From Candidatus Saccharimonadota bacterium (lineage in GTDB: Bacteria > Patescibacteriota > Saccharimonadia > Saccharimonadales > Saccharimonadaceae), in contig JAFUBM010000007.1 in assembly GCA_017460225.1 (NCBI GenBank), forward strand, positions 1 to 58,716: a stretch of DNA of 58,716 nt, in the 5' to 3' direction. Shown piece by piece: positions 1,886 through 53,811 of the stretch. The translations under genes and the position numbers were made by a program. Position 1 is the stretch's first letter. Every line of letters begins with the position of its first letter. The notes beneath the pieces are model-generated. The model was not told where the DNA came from and did no database searches. It saw only the letters and a list, made by a program, of their open reading frames with translations.

Positions 1886-2052
1886 CCAAGAAGCTTCTTT
1901 CTCGCTAGGGAAAATCCAGTCTGATTTTTCTCGACGTCCAGTCGAGCGGCTCGCAAAGCGCCTCGGGCAACACCGGCCGTCGTTTGCTCGCCTTCGTGTC
2001 CGTCTCGAAAAATCCGTGGATTTTCTTTAGCCGCTCGAAAGAACTTCTTGGC
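1886..2052. repeat. Palindromic hairpin element, copy A (intergenic)
   Basis: The outer arms are complementary: CCAAGAAGCTTCTTTC at the left edge pairs with GAAAGAACTTCTTGG at the right edge. The inner part starts GAAAATCCAGTCTGATTTTT and ends AAAAATCCGTGGATTTTC. The inner 140 bp or so is nearly identical to a segment inside der (about 20122-20250), but the outer arms are unrelated between the two copies while each pair is self-complementary. Read on the minus strand it encodes KENPRIFRDGHEGEQ, as in der. Confidence 0.85.
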
Positions 2053-18000: not shown

Positions 18001-19305
18001 GACGGCGCGGACGGCGAGACGGACAACGTGATTGAGCCGGAGGCGGGGGCGAAGATTCTCGATACGGTGAGCTACACAGGACTGACGCCGGGGGAGACGT
18101 ATTATCTTGAGGGGGAGGTGATGCAAAAGACGTCGAGTTCGACGGGTAAGGCGCTGGAGATTGACGGGGCGCCGGTGGCGAAGACAGCGGAGTTTACGGC
18201 GGATGCGGACGGCGCGGGGGAAGTGGAGATTCTCTTTACGTTTGATGCGAGTGAGTTGCCGGGAGAAGAGCTGGTAGTCTACGAGACGTTGTACCAGGTT
18301 ATCGACGGTACGCAGGTTACGCTGGCAGAGCACAAAGATATCAAGGACGGTAATCAGACGGTAAAAGTCCGGCCGAGGATTGGGACGAAAGCGGTAGATA
18401 AATACGATTCGGACCAGACGCTAGGCGTGGGAAGCGCGACGATTGTTGATACGGTAGCGTACGAAGGGCTGACGGATGGCGCGAGCTATACAATGAAAGG
18501 CTATCTTGTACTAGTTGATGGGACAGAGGTCTCGGAGATTGACGGAGCGGAAGCGGTGGTAGAGTTTACGATAGGCGAGGAAGGGACGGAAGAAACGGAC
18601 GGGACGGTGGAAATGGAGTTTACAATCGATACGGCGGAGTATGCCGGGAAGAAAATCGTGGTGTTTGAGGAACTATTAGATGCAGACGAGAACTTGGTAG
18701 CGGAACACAAAGATACGACGGACGCGAGCCAGACGGTTACGGTGGCGACGCCAGGAATCACGACGACGGCCAAAGACAAGCTAGACGACGACAAGGAGCT
18801 GGAACGAAATAGCACTGTAATTATTGTGGATGAAGTAGCTTATACAGGACTGGTGCCGGGGACGACTTATACTTTGCGGGGCGAGCTACGCGACAAGGCG
18901 ACGGGCGAGCTGTTCCAGCTGGCCGACGGGACGGAAGTAGAGCCAGTATACCTGGAGTTTACGCCGGACCGAGACGCTGGGTCGGTCCAGATGGAGTTTG
19001 AGTTTGACTCAACAGGCCTATCCGGAAAAGAAATCGTGGTGTTTGAGCGGCTGTATCTTGGCGAAGAGCCAGCGGAAGACGAAGAGCTGGAGGAGGAAGA
19101 TTTGATTGCGAAGCACGAAGATCTGGAAGCGTATGCCCAGACGGTCTGGGTCCGAGTTGTAACGCCAAACACTGGTGCGGTAACCCGCGGACTAGAGGGC
19201 GCAAAAGCGCGAGGGGTCTATGCGGCTTTGGCGGGAATAAGCCTAGCGAGCGTAGCCGGCTTTGTAACGCTGCGATATTATAAGAAAAATCGGTTTGGAT
19301 TCTAG
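15100..19305 (+). CDS. Thioester/SpaA/VaFE-repeat surface adhesin, 1401 aa
   Basis: Long extracellular stalk protein. An N-terminal signal/anchor (about 10-33) is followed by a thioester-like domain (about 45-225): Cys86 in HAMCLEP and Gln220 in NKQAVGW match the Cys and Gln of thioester adhesins that bond covalently to host targets. Then come three SpaA/CnaB-like domains (about 238-560) and about six VaFE-type repeats starting near 560, 703, 830, 959, 1091 and 1217, each with a TTA(K)D-like start and a VVYETLY/VVFE end whose K and E could form isopeptide bonds. The end is VTPNTG, a membrane segment (about 1368-1390) and KK, a sortase-like sorting signal but not LPxTG. Start ATG 15100 is set by the promoter and an AAAGG; a longer frame from 14860 overlaps phoH. 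Bond formation is inferred. Confidence 0.85.
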   Translation: MRAKIKISKKVLVGVLTFLASAGIFYGVFRLTTNTRATSAGKYAWVSYGTSGTQVTYGTDTWSTQQYTVTENGVSDGTRLTTHAMCLEPIHQSPVGGGSTSLTTNNNQEMIQIMLATDSAYGHSAYSALSSNVTSVAATITNMSPTSGASAIFAVGHMMVGAANGDTSHLSATDITNINNLRTTISNWFSTNAPNDWQSYDLIVLDPNVVLDGYTLANKQAVGWLELNGYTPTPTPTTETGLIQLFKYDSMTGYAAAISNGTGTLSGATFRVYKYGSSTTLATLTTGSNGFTPTYEADEDEVICFQETSAPSGYDLDDTPQCGTIVANSTVLVNMANTPTVSGGIKIRKIDATTGGSTNGGASVVGSTFVVYKYGTSTQVASFTIDTDLGANGATGQTAADALPAGSYTVKELTASTGYSLNTTQSIDFTIDSTHQGLQDYSTNSTYYFSNTVKAGDLEITKYKADKDGATTAFSGVGFKIYRVVSGTETYVSTITTDSTGKAATSGSALTYGTYKLYEVAGDNNEAYDVDESTAVATVTVGEYDGTVVTAPAVTNTLRDDPTLSTLARNSAYSSRDETGATTLPISTSAGVTDKVVFDSLTTGLLYKLEGELWVNDNTIFDPVATTEKVWEHGTESYIDVAFTNVDTSALMGKELGIIQKLYVCTGGHTAGTTTCDGDEWELLANHNENLAEADEMVTVETLGLTTRATSERATANEKTLTAGTVTVLDTVTLHGLTNGETYFIRSQLMDEDGNAITLTSGETSDLTNYIMMATTGSTVNTTMELEFDSSAYIGQTITVYETLYDSEMNELVSHKVLGDAAQSLTVVAPEIDTTAENGASSGSKTLYISSEATIKDTIVLTGLTPNTTYSLSSTVYLVEEDDDGTRTRGEKVLGPVTTGHGFTTGSSENYTAEVTLTLDTMDLAGKELVVYETLYYGTTAIALHTDPTDTDQIVTVGTLGIGTTARDGADGETDNVIEPEAGAKILDTVSYTGLTPGETYYLEGEVMQKTSSSTGKALEIDGAPVAKTAEFTADADGAGEVEILFTFDASELPGEELVVYETLYQVIDGTQVTLAEHKDIKDGNQTVKVRPRIGTKAVDKYDSDQTLGVGSATIVDTVAYEGLTDGASYTMKGYLVLVDGTEVSEIDGAEAVVEFTIGEEGTEETDGTVEMEFTIDTAEYAGKKIVVFEELLDADENLVAEHKDTTDASQTVTVATPGITTTAKDKLDDDKELERNSTVIIVDEVAYTGLVPGTTYTLRGELRDKATGELFQLADGTEVEPVYLEFTPDRDAGSVQMEFEFDSTGLSGKEIVVFERLYLGEEPAEDEELEEEDLIAKHEDLEAYAQTVWVRVVTPNTGAVTRGLEGAKARGVYAALAGISLASVAGFVTLRYYKKNRFGF

Positions 19306-20747
19306 GCTTTAGGACTATCTTCTTCTTTGTCGTCACGGAAGGAGAACATAATTGGCGTACCAACAAAGGGGTAGGTTTCTCGGAGCTTGTTCTCGAGAAA
19401 ACGTTTCCAGGACCAGTGGAGCGTAGAAAGACCGTGACCGTGGACGACAAACCAAGGCGGGCAAGTGTCGGTCTGGACGATATATTTGGGCTTGGGACGA
19501 GTGTTTTTGAGGCCGGCGGGGGCGTGTTCGAGAATAGCTTGGCTAAGAATCTTGTTGAGGTCGGAAGTCTTGAGCTCGGTATGGCGAGCGGCATCAATCT
19601 CGAGCGCGAGATCAAAGAGCTTGGTGACGTTTTCTCCTGTCTTGGCGCTAGTGAGAAGTACTGGCGCGAAGGGGAGGAAGTTGAAATCATACTCGAGATC
19701 GTCGAGGATGGATTGGACCTCCTCGGGAGTCTTAAGATCGGTCTTGGTCAAGACGACGATGATTCCCTTCCCGGCTTCGACGATTTTGCCAGCGAGAGAT
19801 TGGTCGAGCTTGGAATGAGGCTCGGTGGCGTCAACAAGCAGAGCGCAGAGATCGGCTTCTTCGATGGCGGCGAGAGTGCGAATAGCGGAGAACTTTTCTA
19901 TGCCGACTTCGCGTTTGCCGGGCTTGCGTAGACCGGCGGTGTCGAGAATCTCAAGGCTGCGGCCTTTGAACTTGAGCTCGACACGATTGACGTCGCGCGT
20001 GGTGCCCTGGCGGGAAGAGACGAGAGCTTGTTGCTTCTTGGCTAGAGAGTTGAAGAGGCTGGATTTGCCGACGTTAGGGCGGCCGATTAGCGCTATGCTG
20101 ATAGGTGCTTGATTCCCTTTTTTCGCTAGGGAAAATCCAGTCTGATTTTTCTCGACGTCCAGTCGCGCAGCTCGCAAAGCCGTTCGGGTAGCACCGGCCA
20201 CGTTTTGCTCGCCTTCGTGTCCGTCTCGAAAAATCCGTGGATTTTCTTTAGTCGCTTCAAAAAGGGAATTCAAGCACCTCTGCTTTAGCTCTTTGATTCC
20301 CTGGCCGGTGGTGGCGGAGGTGCGGAAGGTGGAGTCGGGCTTGATGCCGAGCGAGCGGAATTCGTTGTCCGGGAGCGAAGCGCCAAGGTCGGACTTGTTG
20401 AGGACAAGGAGGACCGGCTTTTTGGAGCGGAGCGCCATCTTGGCGATACGTTTGTCTTTTTCTGACGGATAAAGGGAGGAATCGAGAGCGAGTAGAATCA
20501 GGTCGGCAGAATCGATGGCGTCGAGGATTTGGTCTTGGATGGAGGCCTCAAAAGCGTCGGTGGCGTCCTTGAGACCGGCAGTGTCGATGAGAATAAAACG
20601 GTCATCAATCCGAGCGGAGACGGAGTCGCGCGTAGTGCCTTCCTCGCGGGCGACGATGGCGATGTTTTTACGCGCAAAACGGTTAAGCAAGCTGGATTTG
20701 CCAGCATTGGTTTGACCGATTAAAGCGACGACGGGGAGACGATTCAT
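19302..20747 (-). CDS. der: Ribosome-assembly GTPase Der (EngA) with in-frame repeat insertion
   Basis: Essential double GTPase for 50S assembly. First G domain: GQTNAGKSS (about 11-19), DTAGLKDA, NKSDLG. Second: GRPNVGKSSLFN, DTAGLRKPGKREVGIEKFS, TKTDLK. The C-terminal KH-like domain ends PIMFSFRDDKEED. Between the G domains, residues about 160-212 (KENPRIFRDGHEGEQ ... LDVEKNQTGFSLAKKGNQ) are not Der sequence but the translation of a palindromic repeat whose twin lies at 1886-2052; the frame stays open and normal motifs resume right after it. The extended -10 TGTTATAAT ends 9 nt before the ATG. The gene converges on the adhesin with a 4-bp overlap of ends. Confidence 0.95.
   Translation of the reverse strand: MNRLPVVALIGQTNAGKSSLLNRFARKNIAIVAREEGTTRDSVSARIDDRFILIDTAGLKDATDAFEASIQDQILDAIDSADLILLALDSSLYPSEKDKRIAKMALRSKKPVLLVLNKSDLGASLPDNEFRSLGIKPDSTFRTSATTGQGIKELKQRCLNSLFEATKENPRIFRDGHEGEQNVAGATRTALRAARLDVEKNQTGFSLAKKGNQAPISIALIGRPNVGKSSLFNSLAKKQQALVSSRQGTTRDVNRVELKFKGRSLEILDTAGLRKPGKREVGIEKFSAIRTLAAIEEADLCALLVDATEPHSKLDQSLAGKIVEAGKGIIVVLTKTDLKTPEEVQSILDDLEYDFNFLPFAPVLLTSAKTGENVTKLFDLALEIDAARHTELKTSDLNKILSQAILEHAPAGLKNTRPKPKYIVQTDTCPPWFVVHGHGLSTLHWSWKRFLENKLRETYPFVGTPIMFSFRDDKEEDSPKA
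20103..20282. repeat. Palindromic hairpin element, copy B (in frame within der)
   Basis: Core about 20122-20250 is nearly identical to copy A. The arms extend outward: GGTGCTTGATTCCCTTTTTT on the left pairs with AAAAAGGGAATTCAAGCACC on the right. These arm sequences differ from those of copy A but are again mutually complementary. Translated as about 50 residues in the Der linker. Confidence 0.88.
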
Positions 20748-26471: not shown

Positions 26472-29400
26472 ATGGAAACAAAACTGCGAAGCTTAGCTAG
26501 GCTAGGGGGAAAGCTTGGTGTGAGCGCCTTCGCAGTTTATGCCTGCTTGTTTTTGGTTTTTGCAGAAATAATTCCAGGGAGAGGGTTTGCCGAGCAAGGC
26601 GCGGCGGTGACGCCGACGTTGGCGGTCTCTCCGTCTGGAGAGCTAAACATCACGGCAGAGCCGGGAGTATTCCGGCAGGTAACGCAGAGCCTGGAAGTGA
26701 CTACGACGAACTTTACGGGTTATACCTTGACGCTAGAGACACTGGGCGAGACGACGGATTTAACACATACGTTACAATCGGGACAGGTGATCCCAACGCT
26801 GACGTTAGCGGGGGAGCAGACTAGCCTGACACCACAGGAGATTACGGACAGTTATGGCTGGAGCGTTGACGCGGCAGCCTTCTTCCCTGCCCCGGAGCCG
26901 GGAGAAGTTGAAGAACTGAAGACGACAAACGTGGCTAATGCGGTGGCAGAGACGACCGAGCTGACCTTTGGGGTAAGGATTGGTGGTTCGAGAGTAGCCG
27001 GGACGTATCAGAACCAGTTTAGGATTTCTGCCGTGGCGAATGAGGCGAACTACCAGATTACTTATATGCCTAATGCGGGAAGCGATACGGTAACAAATAT
27101 GCCAACGCCTTTGACCCAGACGGGCTCGGTCTCGGGGGTGGAAGTTTATCTGGACTCGACGATACCGCGGAGAAGCGGCTATGACTTTTTGGGCTGGTCG
27201 ACGGACGATGAGGCTACGGAGCCGGAGATTCCGCGCGATAATCTGACCTTAGCACTGGATCCGGAAACGGGAAATCAGATTACGGTTTATGCGATTTGGG
27301 TAGAAAACGTCTGTGAGGCGGGGTATATCTGCTACAACGGCAACGGAGATGACGGGACGGGAGAGATGCCAGACCAAGCGGCGAGCTCGAACACCAGCGT
27401 GGCGCTGATTGGCACTAACTTTTCGCGAGCGGGATTTGGGTTTACGGGTTGGAACACGGAGCCGGACGGGAGTGGGGCGCAGTATGGCCCGGGACAAACG
27501 ATTCAGACGGGAGATTTGAGTCTCGGGGGATTGAAACTGTATGCAAAATGGGTACCAACGGCGGGGACACTACAAAACTGGACGGGGTGCTCGGCGATGA
27601 GCACGGGAGAAGTGACGGCGCTAACGGATTTGCGTGACGGGGAGACGTATACTGTGGCGAAGCTAGCGGACGGCAACTGCTGGACGACGGAGAACTTGCG
27701 GCTAGATCCAGCGACGGCGCTAGTCTCTCGGGCGAGTACGAACGGACCAACGGCGGAGTTTGTGCGGCAGGCGCCGCTTGCTGAAAGCGCTAATACGCTT
27801 TGTGCGGCAAACGATGCGGCGTGTCTGAACCAGATTCAATATAACTCCAATAACTTAAATCGGAGTCTCACAGCGGAGCATAATGTAAACGATGCGCGCT
27901 CGTGGTATGGCTACGGGATGATGTATAACTGGTTTACGGCGACAGCGGGTAACGGGACGACGGAGACGACGGGTGGAAACAGCGTAGGCGGAGACATTTG
28001 TCCCGCCGGTTGGAAGATACCGCAAGGCGGGTCGACCTCGGCCGAGCTATATCTTTGGGTCTTTACGGCGATTAACGGAGAGGCGCGAGCAGACGCAACG
28101 CTAAGGACGTATCCGAACAACTGGTATTGGTCGGGAGACTATAACGGTTCGGCACCGACGGGGCGAGGCAACCACGGGCGGATGTGGACGGCGACGGCGG
28201 CGTCGGCCTCGAACGCGTATCGGCTGGGGTATGGTAACGGGAGCAACGTGACGGCGGCGACAAATAACTACAATAAGTGGGTGGCGTTCCCGGTGAGGTG
28301 CGTAGTGAAGAGTGGAAACGCGGCGGTGCTGGGAGATATACACTACGACGCGAACGGCGGGACGGGAGAGATGCCAGACGAGACGGGTGTAAACTTCTAT
28401 ACTACCAGCGTGAAGGAAAATGAGTTTACTAAGGACGGACGGTTCTTCTCTGAATGGAACACGGCGGCGGACGGGAGCGGCGTGACTGTCTTGGAGGGGG
28501 ATTTGCCGACGGAGGCGGTCGAAGCGCTGGAGCTGGGCGCGGGAGACACCTTGACGCTATATGCGGTCTGGGGAGAAGTGTTTACCTTAAACTACGATGC
28601 GAACGGTGGGCAGGGAGCACCAGCGCAGATGACAGGCGTCGGTACGGATAGCTACACCTTTATCGTCTCGGCTGTGACGCCGACGCGGGATGAATACGAT
28701 TTCTTAGGCTGGAGCGAGGACGCTAACGCGACGGAGGCGGACTATGTGGGCGGGGATGATTTTGTGGCGGGTGAAGGCGAGACGGACAGCATACTCTACG
28801 CGGTGTGGACGCCGCAAGTTTGCACGGTGGGGCAAGTGTGTTATCGTGCGAACGGGGCGGACGCAGGGACAAGGCTAATTATTACGCCAAACGCGAATAC
28901 GGGTGAAGCCATACTGAGAGGTACGGATTTCTCGCGAGCAGGATTTGGATTCTCCGGTTGGAACACGGAGCCGGACGGGAGCGGTAGCTACTTTGGGGCG
29001 AACGAGACGATTACGCCGGACGTGTCGGAAGCGGGGCTGGACGTCTACGCCCAGTGGGTGCCGTCGGCAGGGACGATGCAAGGCTGGACGGGATGTTCCG
29101 GGATGGACACGGGCGACATTACGGCGCTGACGGACACGAGAAACGGTGAAGTCTACACTGTGGCGAAGCTGGCGGACGGAAAATGTTGGATGACGGAAAA
29201 CTTGCGGCTGGATCCGTCGACAACGGTCTTTACGGTAGACAATACGAACTCTCCGGCCGAGGGGTTTGCCGAGGCAGTGGTTGGGACGACAACGGCGGAG
29301 GTGACCGGTTGTAAGGCGGACAGTAGCGAGTGTGATGACCAAGTGCGGTTTGATGCGGACAACATCAACCGAAGCTTAACGCCGTCTTATTACTCAACTA

Positions 29401-29852
29401 ACAATGCGAGCTCGTGGTACGGGTATGGGGTACTGTATAACTGGTTTACGGCGACGGCGGGTAACGGAACCTATTCGGTTACAGGAACGGCGGAGGGAGA
29501 TATCTGTCCGAAAGGCTGGCGACTACCAACGGGTAACACGGCTAGGCCTTACGGCGAGATAGGCGCTCTAAACACGGCTATCAATAACGGCGCTACGAAT
29601 ACGAACGCTAAGCTACGGGAGTATCCAGCCAACTTTGTCCTGGCGGGAGACCACAATGAAAAGGGCGATTCGGGGCGAGGCTCCCAAGCGAGGTATTGGA
29701 CGGCTTCGGCCAACGCGGCGGCGACCGTGGTGCGGCTAGGGCTGGACTATTCGGTCAACGCGACGACCGGCGTGGTAGGGACAAACACGGTGACGTTTAG
29801 GGCGTACAATAAATGGGACCTCTTTGCCGTGAGGTGCTTGGCGAAAGAGTAG
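26472..29852 (+). CDS. InlB-repeat / FISUMP-domain surface protein, 1126 aa
   Basis: A signal peptide or N-terminal anchor (about 15-38) precedes a beta-rich domain (about 45-190). Then come about five Listeria-Bacteroides (InlB B-type, Flg_new) repeats, recognisable by YDANGG...GY/FxFLGWsxdxxxx...LYAVW, and two FISUMP domains marked by TYTVAKLADGNCWTTENLRLD (written here as VAKLADGNCW-TTENLRLD) and VYTVAKLADGKCWMTENL. The order repeat-FISUMP occurs twice, about 1.5 kb apart, with very similar wording (SRAGFGFxGWNTEPDGSG), so the gene grew by internal duplication. Paired cysteines suggest disulfides outside the cell. No C-terminal anchor is seen. Expression may be phase-variable because of the upstream G9 tract. 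Confidence 0.82.
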   Translation: METKLRSLARLGGKLGVSAFAVYACLFLVFAEIIPGRGFAEQGAAVTPTLAVSPSGELNITAEPGVFRQVTQSLEVTTTNFTGYTLTLETLGETTDLTHTLQSGQVIPTLTLAGEQTSLTPQEITDSYGWSVDAAAFFPAPEPGEVEELKTTNVANAVAETTELTFGVRIGGSRVAGTYQNQFRISAVANEANYQITYMPNAGSDTVTNMPTPLTQTGSVSGVEVYLDSTIPRRSGYDFLGWSTDDEATEPEIPRDNLTLALDPETGNQITVYAIWVENVCEAGYICYNGNGDDGTGEMPDQAASSNTSVALIGTNFSRAGFGFTGWNTEPDGSGAQYGPGQTIQTGDLSLGGLKLYAKWVPTAGTLQNWTGCSAMSTGEVTALTDLRDGETYTVAKLADGNCWTTENLRLDPATALVSRASTNGPTAEFVRQAPLAESANTLCAANDAACLNQIQYNSNNLNRSLTAEHNVNDARSWYGYGMMYNWFTATAGNGTTETTGGNSVGGDICPAGWKIPQGGSTSAELYLWVFTAINGEARADATLRTYPNNWYWSGDYNGSAPTGRGNHGRMWTATAASASNAYRLGYGNGSNVTAATNNYNKWVAFPVRCVVKSGNAAVLGDIHYDANGGTGEMPDETGVNFYTTSVKENEFTKDGRFFSEWNTAADGSGVTVLEGDLPTEAVEALELGAGDTLTLYAVWGEVFTLNYDANGGQGAPAQMTGVGTDSYTFIVSAVTPTRDEYDFLGWSEDANATEADYVGGDDFVAGEGETDSILYAVWTPQVCTVGQVCYRANGADAGTRLIITPNANTGEAILRGTDFSRAGFGFSGWNTEPDGSGSYFGANETITPDVSEAGLDVYAQWVPSAGTMQGWTGCSGMDTGDITALTDTRNGEVYTVAKLADGKCWMTENLRLDPSTTVFTVDNTNSPAEGFAEAVVGTTTAEVTGCKADSSECDDQVRFDADNINRSLTPSYYSTNNASSWYGYGVLYNWFTATAGNGTYSVTGTAEGDICPKGWRLPTGNTARPYGEIGALNTAINNGATNTNAKLREYPANFVLAGDHNEKGDSGRGSQARYWTASANAAATVVRLGLDYSVNATTGVVGTNTVTFRAYNKWDLFAVRCLAKE

Positions 29853-48668: not shown

Positions 48669-48692
48669 TAAAAATACTTATACACAACAAAA

Positions 48693-48834
48693 AAGGCTCG
48701 TTGCTTGCGGTCGGAAGTTCCTTTTGGGGGCCGGCCTCCTGCGCGCCCGTCGTTACGGGGCTCCGGGGCCTTAATCCTCGGTCGTAACCTCCGGACACCC
48801 CCAAAACGAACCTTCCTCCCCGCAACCGAGCCTT
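48693..48834 (-). repeat. Palindromic hairpin element, candidate copy C / terminator of rpsP
   Basis: 142 bp that begin at the rpsP stop codon. On the minus strand GGCTCGGTTGC pairs with GCAACGAGCC, TTTTGGGGG with CCCCCAAAA, and GGAAG/CTTCC between them; the inner part has GTTACG/CGTAAC. TTTTTT follows the last stem, so it can terminate rpsP transcription. The inner part shares TCCTCG-2 nt-GTA-2 nt-CTCCGGA with the leuS insertion, so kinship with the other hairpins is suggested but weak. It could also be a processed structured RNA. Confidence 0.65.
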
Positions 48835-51330: not shown

Positions 51331-53811
51331 TTAGGCCACGAGGTTCAAGAGGTGGGCGTGGGGGACGTAGATGGATTTTTTGGGCTTACCGGAGACGAAC
51401 TTCTGGACGTTGGTATCTTTGAGCGCGAGAGCGATAACCTTGTCTTCATCTTCTGTGTCGGCGACGGGGACGGAGAGCTTGGCGCGGAGCTTGCCGTTGA
51501 CCTGGACAACAACTTCGACAACGTCGGCGGCGAGCTTGGACTCGTCCCAAGTAGGCCAGACGTCGTCAGCCTTGAGGCTCTCCAGCATCTCGGAGGCGAG
51601 GTGCGGAGCAAAGGGCTTCAGCAGCTTACCTAAGATAATCAAGTCTTCCTTGGAGGCGCCGGATTTGTAGAGCTCGTTGACGTATTCCATCAAAGCGGCG
51701 ACAGCGGTGTTGAAGCTGGCGCGATGGAGGTCCTGGGTGACTTTTTTGATGGTTTTGTGCCTGATCTGCTCTGTTTTGGCGGCTATAACGGCGAACGATT
51801 CTTTGTCGGAGGCGCGTCGCGCCAGCCCGCCGTCGCGGGTGTCGCGCGCTCGTCCTCGCCGTAGCTCCGGATCCTCCGACGAAAGAACATTCGCCTCGCC
51901 GCCAAAACATAAAGTCCAGCAGCGGTTTAGGAAGCGGTAGACGCCGCCGACACCTTTGGTGGACCAGGCGGCATCTTCGTTGTAGGGACCGATAAACATT
52001 TCGTAAGTGCGGAGCGTGTCGGCGCCGTAGCCGGAGTCGATGACATCGAGCGGGTCGATGACGTTGCCCTTGCTCTTACTCATTTTTTTGCCGTCGGGCG
52101 CGTTGATGTAGCCGTTGTAAAGGAGCTTCTTGATTGGCTCACGGAAAGGCAGGAGGCCGAGGTCAGCAAAGAATTTGCACCAGAAGCGGACGTAGAGCAG
52201 GTGTGCCACGGCGTGGTCACCGCCAACGTAGATGTCCGTGGGCGCCCAGTATTTGATCAGCTCGGGATCCCAAGCGTGCTCTGTGTCATGCGCGGAGACG
52301 TAGCGCCAGAGATACCAGGAAGAACAGGCGTAGCCATCGAGGGTGTCGGTCTCGCGGGTCATCTCTTCCCCGTCAACTGTGACTTTGAGCCAATCCTTAG
52401 CTTTGGCGAGGGCGGAACGGCCGGATTTATCGGGCGCATAATCTTTAACTTCGGGGTGAATGACCGGGAGTTGGTCTTCTGGGATGGGGTGGGGATGGCC
52501 GGACTTGTCATAAGCGATAGGAATGGGGCAGCCCCAGTAGCGCTGGCGGGAAATCAGCCAGTCGCGCATCTTGTAAGTGACCTTTTTGTGGCCGATACCG
52601 CGAGACTCAAGCCAAGCAACGATGGATTCACGAGCTTCGGCAGAGGCGAGACCGGTAAACTCACCAGAGTTAACGAGCGTACCCTCGCCGTGATAACACC
52701 GCTCAGCGGCGAGATCTTTGGGCGGCTCGACAACGGCGATGACGGGGAGAGAAAACTTTTCGGCAAACTCAAAGTCACGCTCGTCGTGGGCCGGGACGGC
52801 CATAATGGCACCGGTGCCATAGCCAGAGAGAACGTAGTCGGCGACCCAGATGGGGATTTGCTCACCGTTGACGGGATTGATGGCATAGGAGCCGGTAAAG
52901 ACACCCGTCTTCTCTTTGTTTTCTTGGCGTTCGATCTCGGACTTCTTCAGTGCGGATTTGATGTAGGCTTCGACAGCGGGCTTGGTGTCTGGAGTAACGA
53001 GGGATTTGACCAGCGGGTGCTCCGGAGCGAGGACCAGGAAGGTGGCGCCAAAGAGCGTGTCTGGACGGGTGGTAAAAACGGTGATTTTTTTGGCAGAGCC
53101 TTTTTCTAAAGTGAAATCGACTTCTGCGCCTTCGGAGCGGCCGATCCAGTTGCGCTGGGCGGTCTTAATCTTCTCTGGCCAATCGAGCGAGTCGATGTCG
53201 GCTAGAAGCTCGTCGGCGTAGGCGGTAATCTTGAAGAACCACTGTTTCATCTTCTTCTTTTCGACTTCGTGACCACAGCGCCAGCAACAACCATTCTCGA
53301 CCTGTTCGTTGGCGAGGACGGTTTGGTCTACGGGGCACCACCACTGGTAAGATTCCTTTTGGTAGGCGAGGCCTTTCTCGAAGAGCTTGAGGAAGCACCA
53401 CTGAGTCCATTTGTAATACTCGGGATCACTGGTGTTGATCTCGCGCGACCAGTCGATGGCATAGCCGAGCTTTTTGGCTTGCTTGCGGAAGTTCGCGATG
53501 TTGGTGGCGGTGGCGGCTTGGGGAGAGATGCCGGTCTTGATGGCGTAGTTTTCGGCGGGGAGGCCGAAGGTGTCGTAGCCGAAAGGACGGAGGACGTTTA
53601 GCTCCTGCTGAGTGTAGAAACGGGTAAGGACGTCGACGATGGTGAAGTTGCGGACGTGGCCAACGTGGAGCCCGGCGCCGGAGGGATACGGGAACATCTC
53701 GGCGAGGAACATCTTAGGTTTCTTAGACGTGTCGTCCGCGCGGAAAGCCTGCGATTTTTCCCAGCGGGCTTGCCACTTGGCTTCGATTTCAAGAGGATTG
53801 TAACGATTCAT
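51331..53811 (-). CDS. leuS: Leucyl-tRNA synthetase with in-frame palindromic insertion
   Basis: 826 residues. HIGH motif as FPYPSGAGLHVGHVRNFTIVD (in part, about 36-52), zinc-type CWRCGHEVEKKKMKQWFFKIT (about 178-198), editing-domain VFTTRPDTLFGATFLV, TIMA-like GTGAIMAVPAHDERDFEFA, and KMSKS in DGKKMSKSKGNVIDP. The leucine-specific WP and DWLISRQRYWGCPIP motifs are present. Between RFLNRCWTL and IRHKTIKKVTQDLH, residues about 635-680 (FGGEANVLSSEDPELRRGRA ... ARRASDKESFAVIAAK) are the translation of a 136-bp hairpin, placed in a variable linker before the anticodon-binding domain. An extended -10 ends 6 nt before the ATG; leaderless. Confidence 0.96.
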   Translation of the reverse strand: MNRYNPLEIEAKWQARWEKSQAFRADDTSKKPKMFLAEMFPYPSGAGLHVGHVRNFTIVDVLTRFYTQQELNVLRPFGYDTFGLPAENYAIKTGISPQAATATNIANFRKQAKKLGYAIDWSREINTSDPEYYKWTQWCFLKLFEKGLAYQKESYQWWCPVDQTVLANEQVENGCCWRCGHEVEKKKMKQWFFKITAYADELLADIDSLDWPEKIKTAQRNWIGRSEGAEVDFTLEKGSAKKITVFTTRPDTLFGATFLVLAPEHPLVKSLVTPDTKPAVEAYIKSALKKSEIERQENKEKTGVFTGSYAINPVNGEQIPIWVADYVLSGYGTGAIMAVPAHDERDFEFAEKFSLPVIAVVEPPKDLAAERCYHGEGTLVNSGEFTGLASAEARESIVAWLESRGIGHKKVTYKMRDWLISRQRYWGCPIPIAYDKSGHPHPIPEDQLPVIHPEVKDYAPDKSGRSALAKAKDWLKVTVDGEEMTRETDTLDGYACSSWYLWRYVSAHDTEHAWDPELIKYWAPTDIYVGGDHAVAHLLYVRFWCKFFADLGLLPFREPIKKLLYNGYINAPDGKKMSKSKGNVIDPLDVIDSGYGADTLRTYEMFIGPYNEDAAWSTKGVGGVYRFLNRCWTLCFGGEANVLSSEDPELRRGRARDTRDGGLARRASDKESFAVIAAKTEQIRHKTIKKVTQDLHRASFNTAVAALMEYVNELYKSGASKEDLIILGKLLKPFAPHLASEMLESLKADDVWPTWDESKLAADVVEVVVQVNGKLRAKLSVPVADTEDEDKVIALALKDTNVQKFVSGKPKKSIYVPHAHLLNLVA
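51773..51908. repeat. Palindromic hairpin element, copy D (in frame within leuS)
   Basis: Left arm 51773-51812 (GTTTTGGCGGC ... GGCGAACG ... TTCTTTGTCGGAGG) pairs with right arm 51873-51908 (CCTCCGAC-AAAGAA ... TTCGCC ... GCCGCCAAAAC) with a few mismatches and one bulge. The GC-rich loop region encodes RRGRARDTRDGGLARRAS. Same architecture as the element in der; sequence kinship to copy C is short, to copies A and B weak. Confidence 0.8.

Follow-up and report, generated by a model that had tools for sequence, protein, structure and literature searches.

Palindromic elements with near-identical cores and differing self-complementary arms in a genus of Saccharibacteria

Most palindromic elements known to lie in frame within protein genes come from Rickettsiales, and they have no established way of moving. 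The Rickettsia palindromic elements (RPE) and the Wolbachia palindromic elements are 100 to 150 bp long, form several families, occur both in frame in conserved protein genes and between genes, and have no known transposase (PMC2229807, PMC3767692). Template switching, in turn, is documented to make and repair hairpin arms (PMC8794818, PMC8604942) and to give rise to changes in coding genes (PMC8604942). In the open-access literature (most subscription journals lie outside it), we found no description of elements of this kind from either Saccharibacteria or Patescibacteria.

The elements considered here lie in a window of 58,716 nucleotides (the whole stretch of DNA that was analyzed) and elsewhere in the same genome and genus. 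They are palindromic repeats of a size close to that of the RPE (family A is ∼165 to 175 bp with its arms, around a core of ∼140 bp; family B has a core of ∼75 bp plus arms), and they are inserted in frame in conserved protein genes. Terminal inverted repeats owned by the element were not found, the outer arms being unrelated between most copies.

Copies, families, and host genes

Two copies of family A in the window, one intergenic (the twin) and one within the ribosome biogenesis GTPase gene der, have a common core and different arms (Table 1). In each copy the arms pair with one another. The twin folds into a single long rod (−77.4 kcal/mol; z = −6.2 against shuffled sequences), as does the der copy, and every copy folded gave a stable rod. 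The same window also contains direct repeats at positions 27405 to 29470, with ∼1.5-kb spacing and 72 to 86% identity (repeat scan).

Table 1. Positions of palindromic elements, their arms, and a host gene in the window
Feature	Positions	Strand	Remarks
Family A palindromic element, intergenic twin	1886..2051	minus (coding sense)	Intergenic copy
Twin outer arm CCAAGAAGCTTCTTT	1886..1900		Kin arms in L002 and L004; inner TTCTTT common to most family A copies
Twin partner arm AAAGAACTTCTTGG	2038..2051		Pairs with CCAAGAAGCTTCTTT
Twin core common to der	1898..2040	−	90% identity over 143 nt with 20119..20261 (repeat comparison within the window)
der (ribosome biogenesis GTPase); the in-frame insert separates the two GTPase domains	19302..20747	−	NCBIfam
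Family A element within der, arms included, in frame	20104..20278	−	Fold, translation, core alignment
der C-terminal-side arm (GGTGCTTGATTCCCTTTTTT)	20104..20123		Inverted copy of the native arm; adjoins PISIALIG codons
der N-terminal-side arm (AAAAAGGGAATTCAAGCACC on the plus strand)	20259..20278		Native; encodes the last part of the helix in the G1 domain (ELKQRCLNSL)
Family B element, tip CCCGTCGTTACGGG	48692..48834		Between two genes; outer bases AAGGCTCGTTGC/GCAACCGAGCCTT pair around a middle module common with L119:1543
Palindromic insert, in frame within leuS	51760..51919	−	Outer arm module is that of L003/L005; core different

That the core is a palindromic element read in frame as protein had not been foreseen by the sequence-only reading of this DNA. 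Family A has 10 copies in the window genome (694 kb): 6 are intergenic, and 4 (in der, obg, valS, and dnaX) are genic and share one frame, read as (S)FEATKENPRIFRDGHEGEQNVAGATRTALRAARLDVEKNQTGFSLAKK (FEATKEN...SLAKK). Relatives carry in-frame copies in dnaX (G031), der (G016), and tatD (G022). Of 13 copies, 12 have a core of 140 nt; the core of the remaining one is two codons longer (146 nt). Checked copies without a long open reading frame are intergenic or close to gene starts; the genic copies were partly found via an open reading frame, and the rate of frame keeping is thus not unbiased. Taking all families together, the genic hosts are der, obg, valS, dnaX, tatD, lepA, alaS, gatA, leuS, and tsaD (gene names backed by NCBIfam). 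With a covariance model, family A was detected in 5 of 36 genomes of the genus, i.e., 4 beyond the window genome, and in none of 25 genomes from other genera. The named carrier relatives are three “Candidatus Saccharibacteria” isolates (RGIG) from sheep gut. Rfam gave no match to the element above the gathering score, and its two subthreshold matches both lie outside the element.

The der linkers of other members of the genus hold different palindromes. A DNA probe built from three der-linker palindromes revealed family B, with the tip CCCGTCGTTACGGG, in 33 of 35 genomes of the genus besides that of the window; the 24 genomes searched from other genera had none. A hairpin census over 655 kb of the window genome counted 54 strong hairpins, compared with 3 in shuffled sequence. 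Families A and B are among them, as are a third family (C; four copies) and nested cases, where a single outer arm module encloses different cores. The family C copies (L113:9120, L118:10720, L122:11920, and L125:6036) again have different, self-complementary outer arms. Among the nested cases, L003 and L005 have a second hairpin module in common, which recurs in the leuS insert of the window. A family B insert of G007 (L188) occupies the same leuS site as the insert at 51760 to 51919.

Origin of the outer arms

Arms are matched to their own partners well beyond chance. When flanks were exchanged between copies of family A, the mean pairing score fell from 11.8 to 5.6, and each of the 11 copies paired best with its own flanks, scoring above 99% of exchanged arms. 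In family B, the corresponding means are 15.8 and 5.4, with own arms ahead in 31 of 33 copies. Left arms, by comparison between copies, are barely more similar than random 30-mers (family A, 11 copies). The innermost ∼5 to 6 nt (TTCTTT/AAAGAA) are largely common among family A copies and so are part of the element.

Differences between arms are not matched by differences between cores. Within G007, cores that are 97 to 100% identical lie in der, lepA, and alaS, each with ∼20 bp of its own, near-perfect arms. G019 (der and tatD) and G023 (der and an intergenic site) likewise have cores 97 to 100% identical, each between ∼20 bp of its own unrelated arms. Four copies of the window genome, L004, L005, L007, and L008 (der), have inner cores that differ from one another at 1 to 3 of 134 nt and yet have unrelated arms. 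Such near-identical cores with different arms in a single genome are the strongest evidence that the arms are mostly of local origin.

The relatives' linkers are too diverged for an empty-site comparison at the nucleotide level, and tests were therefore made at the protein level. For der, six members of the genus provided empty linkers and eleven provided filled ones, including G018, which has a palindrome without the core; the empties are other species, with 75 to 86% protein identity, rather than strains. The N-terminal arm side has a mean BLOSUM62 score of 0.90 against the empties and keeps the helix pattern, whereas the C-terminal arm side, up to the LKIALIG motif, scores 0.04; the empties among themselves score 1.33 on either side. 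Since the N-terminal side alone keeps homology with the empties, the N-terminal arm is the host's own sequence, and its C-terminal partner is an inverted copy. Across other sites, the direction was judged from the extent of tblastn alignment coverage: the native arm reads as N-terminal at 13 sites (several der copies among them) and as C-terminal at 7, others being ambiguous. In obg and tatD, the conserved side is C-terminal. The G018 der linker (L027) contains a coreless in-frame palindrome with ∼25-bp arms and a 3-nt loop, and palindromes can therefore exist without the element.

The twin departs from this pattern. The sister copies L002 and L004 have arms (CCAATAAG...CTTATTGG) that are akin to its own (CCAAGAAG...CTTCTTGG) and show a compensated change. 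The twin's arms thus seem to be an exception in having traveled or been duplicated together with the core. Setting the twin beside der would therefore contrast inherited arms with locally made ones. The sequence-only reading was right that one core sits between different self-complementary arms in these two copies, with two refinements: the innermost bases are largely shared, and the twin arms recur in kin form at two further sites. Some intergenic copies carry inherited arms (L001/L002/L004; L003/L005), and the borders of the copying events were placed by comparison across species. Of the two explanations that it offered, inverted copying of the target agrees in substance with the native arm and inverted partner at der, while selection on the hairpin fares poorly, as discussed next.

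Several other explanations of the arms deserve consideration. If the hairpin were kept through selection on RNA or DNA structure, with arms drifting through compensatory changes, all copies should be stable rods, as they are; slow drift of this kind is nevertheless strongly disfavored because the arms are unrelated from site to site even where the cores are nearly identical, and the arms moreover lie within the coding sequence of many unrelated genes. We regard this explanation as very improbable. An assembly or library artifact that creates inverted repeats is equally hard to credit: every genome is a draft assembly and the named relatives are the three sheep-gut RGIG isolates mentioned above, but related cores are found in 33 other species of the genus, the frame is kept in the genic copies examined, and sites recur.

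Two further explanations also seem unlikely, if less so. The core might prefer the tips of hairpins already present, so that the arms would be older local palindromes. One outer hairpin module does hold a family A core (L003/L005), another core (window position 51760), and a family B core (G031); a coreless 25-bp palindrome exists in G018 der; and YPAL elements go in at or near dyad symmetry (PMC2229807). Coreless palindromes are rare, however: 655 kb of the window genome yielded one strict match, and 644 kb of G002 yielded none. The der linkers of the six empty genus members hold no such palindrome, and an independent prior palindrome would be needed at each of at least 10 der sites, which makes this route improbable. 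Alternatively, the core may arrive with just short TTCTTT/AAAGAA ends, the arms being lengthened and repaired later by quasi-palindrome template switching. The conserved inner and local outer arm bases fit such a course, as do the compensated change between the L001 and L004 arms and the known homogenization of arms via template switching (PMC8604942, PMC8794818), but cores that are still 97 to 100% identical already have 20-bp arms, and growth would have to be very fast. We consider later growth of the arms unlikely.

Proposed mechanism and candidate mobilizers

Our preferred reading, to which we assign a probability of roughly 0.62, is that one genus of gut Saccharibacteria has small palindromic elements that are mobile, in which the hairpin core and a few terminal bases move, while the long outer arms are mostly local DNA plus its inverted copy, made by fold-back template-switch copying. 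From empties of other species, we infer that the copying takes place at or just after insertion. The process might run as follows. (i) The hairpin core would be joined next to a nascent 3′ end at replication. (ii) The core's own stem would fold back, leaving the 3′ end paired at the base of the stem. (iii) Polymerase would then extend the folded end along the flank that it had just passed, producing the reverse complement of that flank and a longer stem. (iv) Reannealing downstream would finally bring synthesis back to the chromosome, and a variable number of bases would be lost or gained on the way.

More tentatively, this could amount to a mode of transposition that relies on a mobile DNA hairpin to prime its own extension on the target; each insertion would then be flanked by an inverted rather than a direct local duplication. 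Such a mode would be common to several unrelated hairpin families of one genus and independent of Y1 transposase; we put it forward as a possibility that is somewhat less likely than not.

Candidate mobilizers were sought in several directions. The Y1 (RAYT) transposase domain, PF01797, was detected in 0 of 24 genomes of the genus, the window genome included, and in 7 genomes of other genera; a RAYT-driven REP system was rejected on this result. Viral carriage was likewise rejected after a scan of IMG/VR with a peptide alignment found no carrier. A reverse transcriptase gene is present in 26 of 40 genomes of the genus, but it was set aside as the mover because family B match counts are similar in genomes with and without one (means of ∼5.8 and 6.4, respectively, compared by hand). 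One stand-alone reverse transcriptase of 383 amino acids (L110:724-1875, on contig C4 of G000) has two copies of family B and the family A copy of valS in its vicinity and scores below every NCBIfam cutoff.

SbcD, a nuclease subunit acting on hairpins, gave no match above the cutoff in any of 40 sampled members of the order. Such a lack of matches would be permissive for long palindromes, but as it is unmatched throughout the sampled order and so not specific to the genus, loss of SbcCD is rejected as the cause and is at most a permissive factor.

Comparison with known palindromic elements

Among described systems, these elements share with the RPE the size of the palindrome, in-frame genic insertion, a plurality of families, and the lack of a known transposase, a likeness of habit. 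The RPE belong to Rickettsia, in another bacterial phylum, and are tabulated with 12-bp terminal inverted repeats (PMC2229807), whereas here ∼5 to 6 inner bases are in common and the outer arms are mostly site specific. REP and REPIN sequences are also short repeated palindromes, some of them within genes (PMC3733652), but the present rod is much longer, its arms are site specific, and the genus genomes surveyed lack the Y1 transposase. With MITEs, the common ground is a small, nonautonomous repeat with hairpin potential. MITEs typically have fixed terminal inverted repeats and target duplications (PMC2229807), whereas the long arms here vary by site. The net length change, as estimated from tblastn gaps against cross-species empties, varies from about −7 to +10 amino acids, which looks unlike a fixed duplication, and no constant direct repeat was seen.

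Inverted repeats that preserve the frame of protein genes are known from organelles as well, as coding palindromes in mitochondria of Nematomorpha and as repetitive hairpin elements in sponge mitochondrial DNA (PMC6649704, PMC2800124). Besides being organellar, the former differ in that the abstract describing them mentions no shared mobile core (PMC6649704), and the latter differ in having conserved stems (PMC2800124). Template-switch (quasi-palindrome) mutations create or homogenize reverse-complement arms in one event, in coding genes too (PMC8794818, PMC8604942), but known ones have no mobile repeated core attached. Their hallmark, one native arm beside an adjacent inverted copy, is found at der; at other sites, where it was read from tblastn coverage, the direction is mixed and some cases are ambiguous.

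A Saccharibacteria genus with small genomes, in which several families occupy dozens of genic sites and near-identical cores lie between different arms, thus provides a natural experiment on hairpin insertion, and it suggests replication fold-back as the writer of the arms. It also shows how, in reduced genomes, essential proteins can gain new linker peptides, at spots that recur across species (der, tatD, valS, dnaX, and lepA). Relative to in-frame insertion of the RPE kind, the new feature is the arms.
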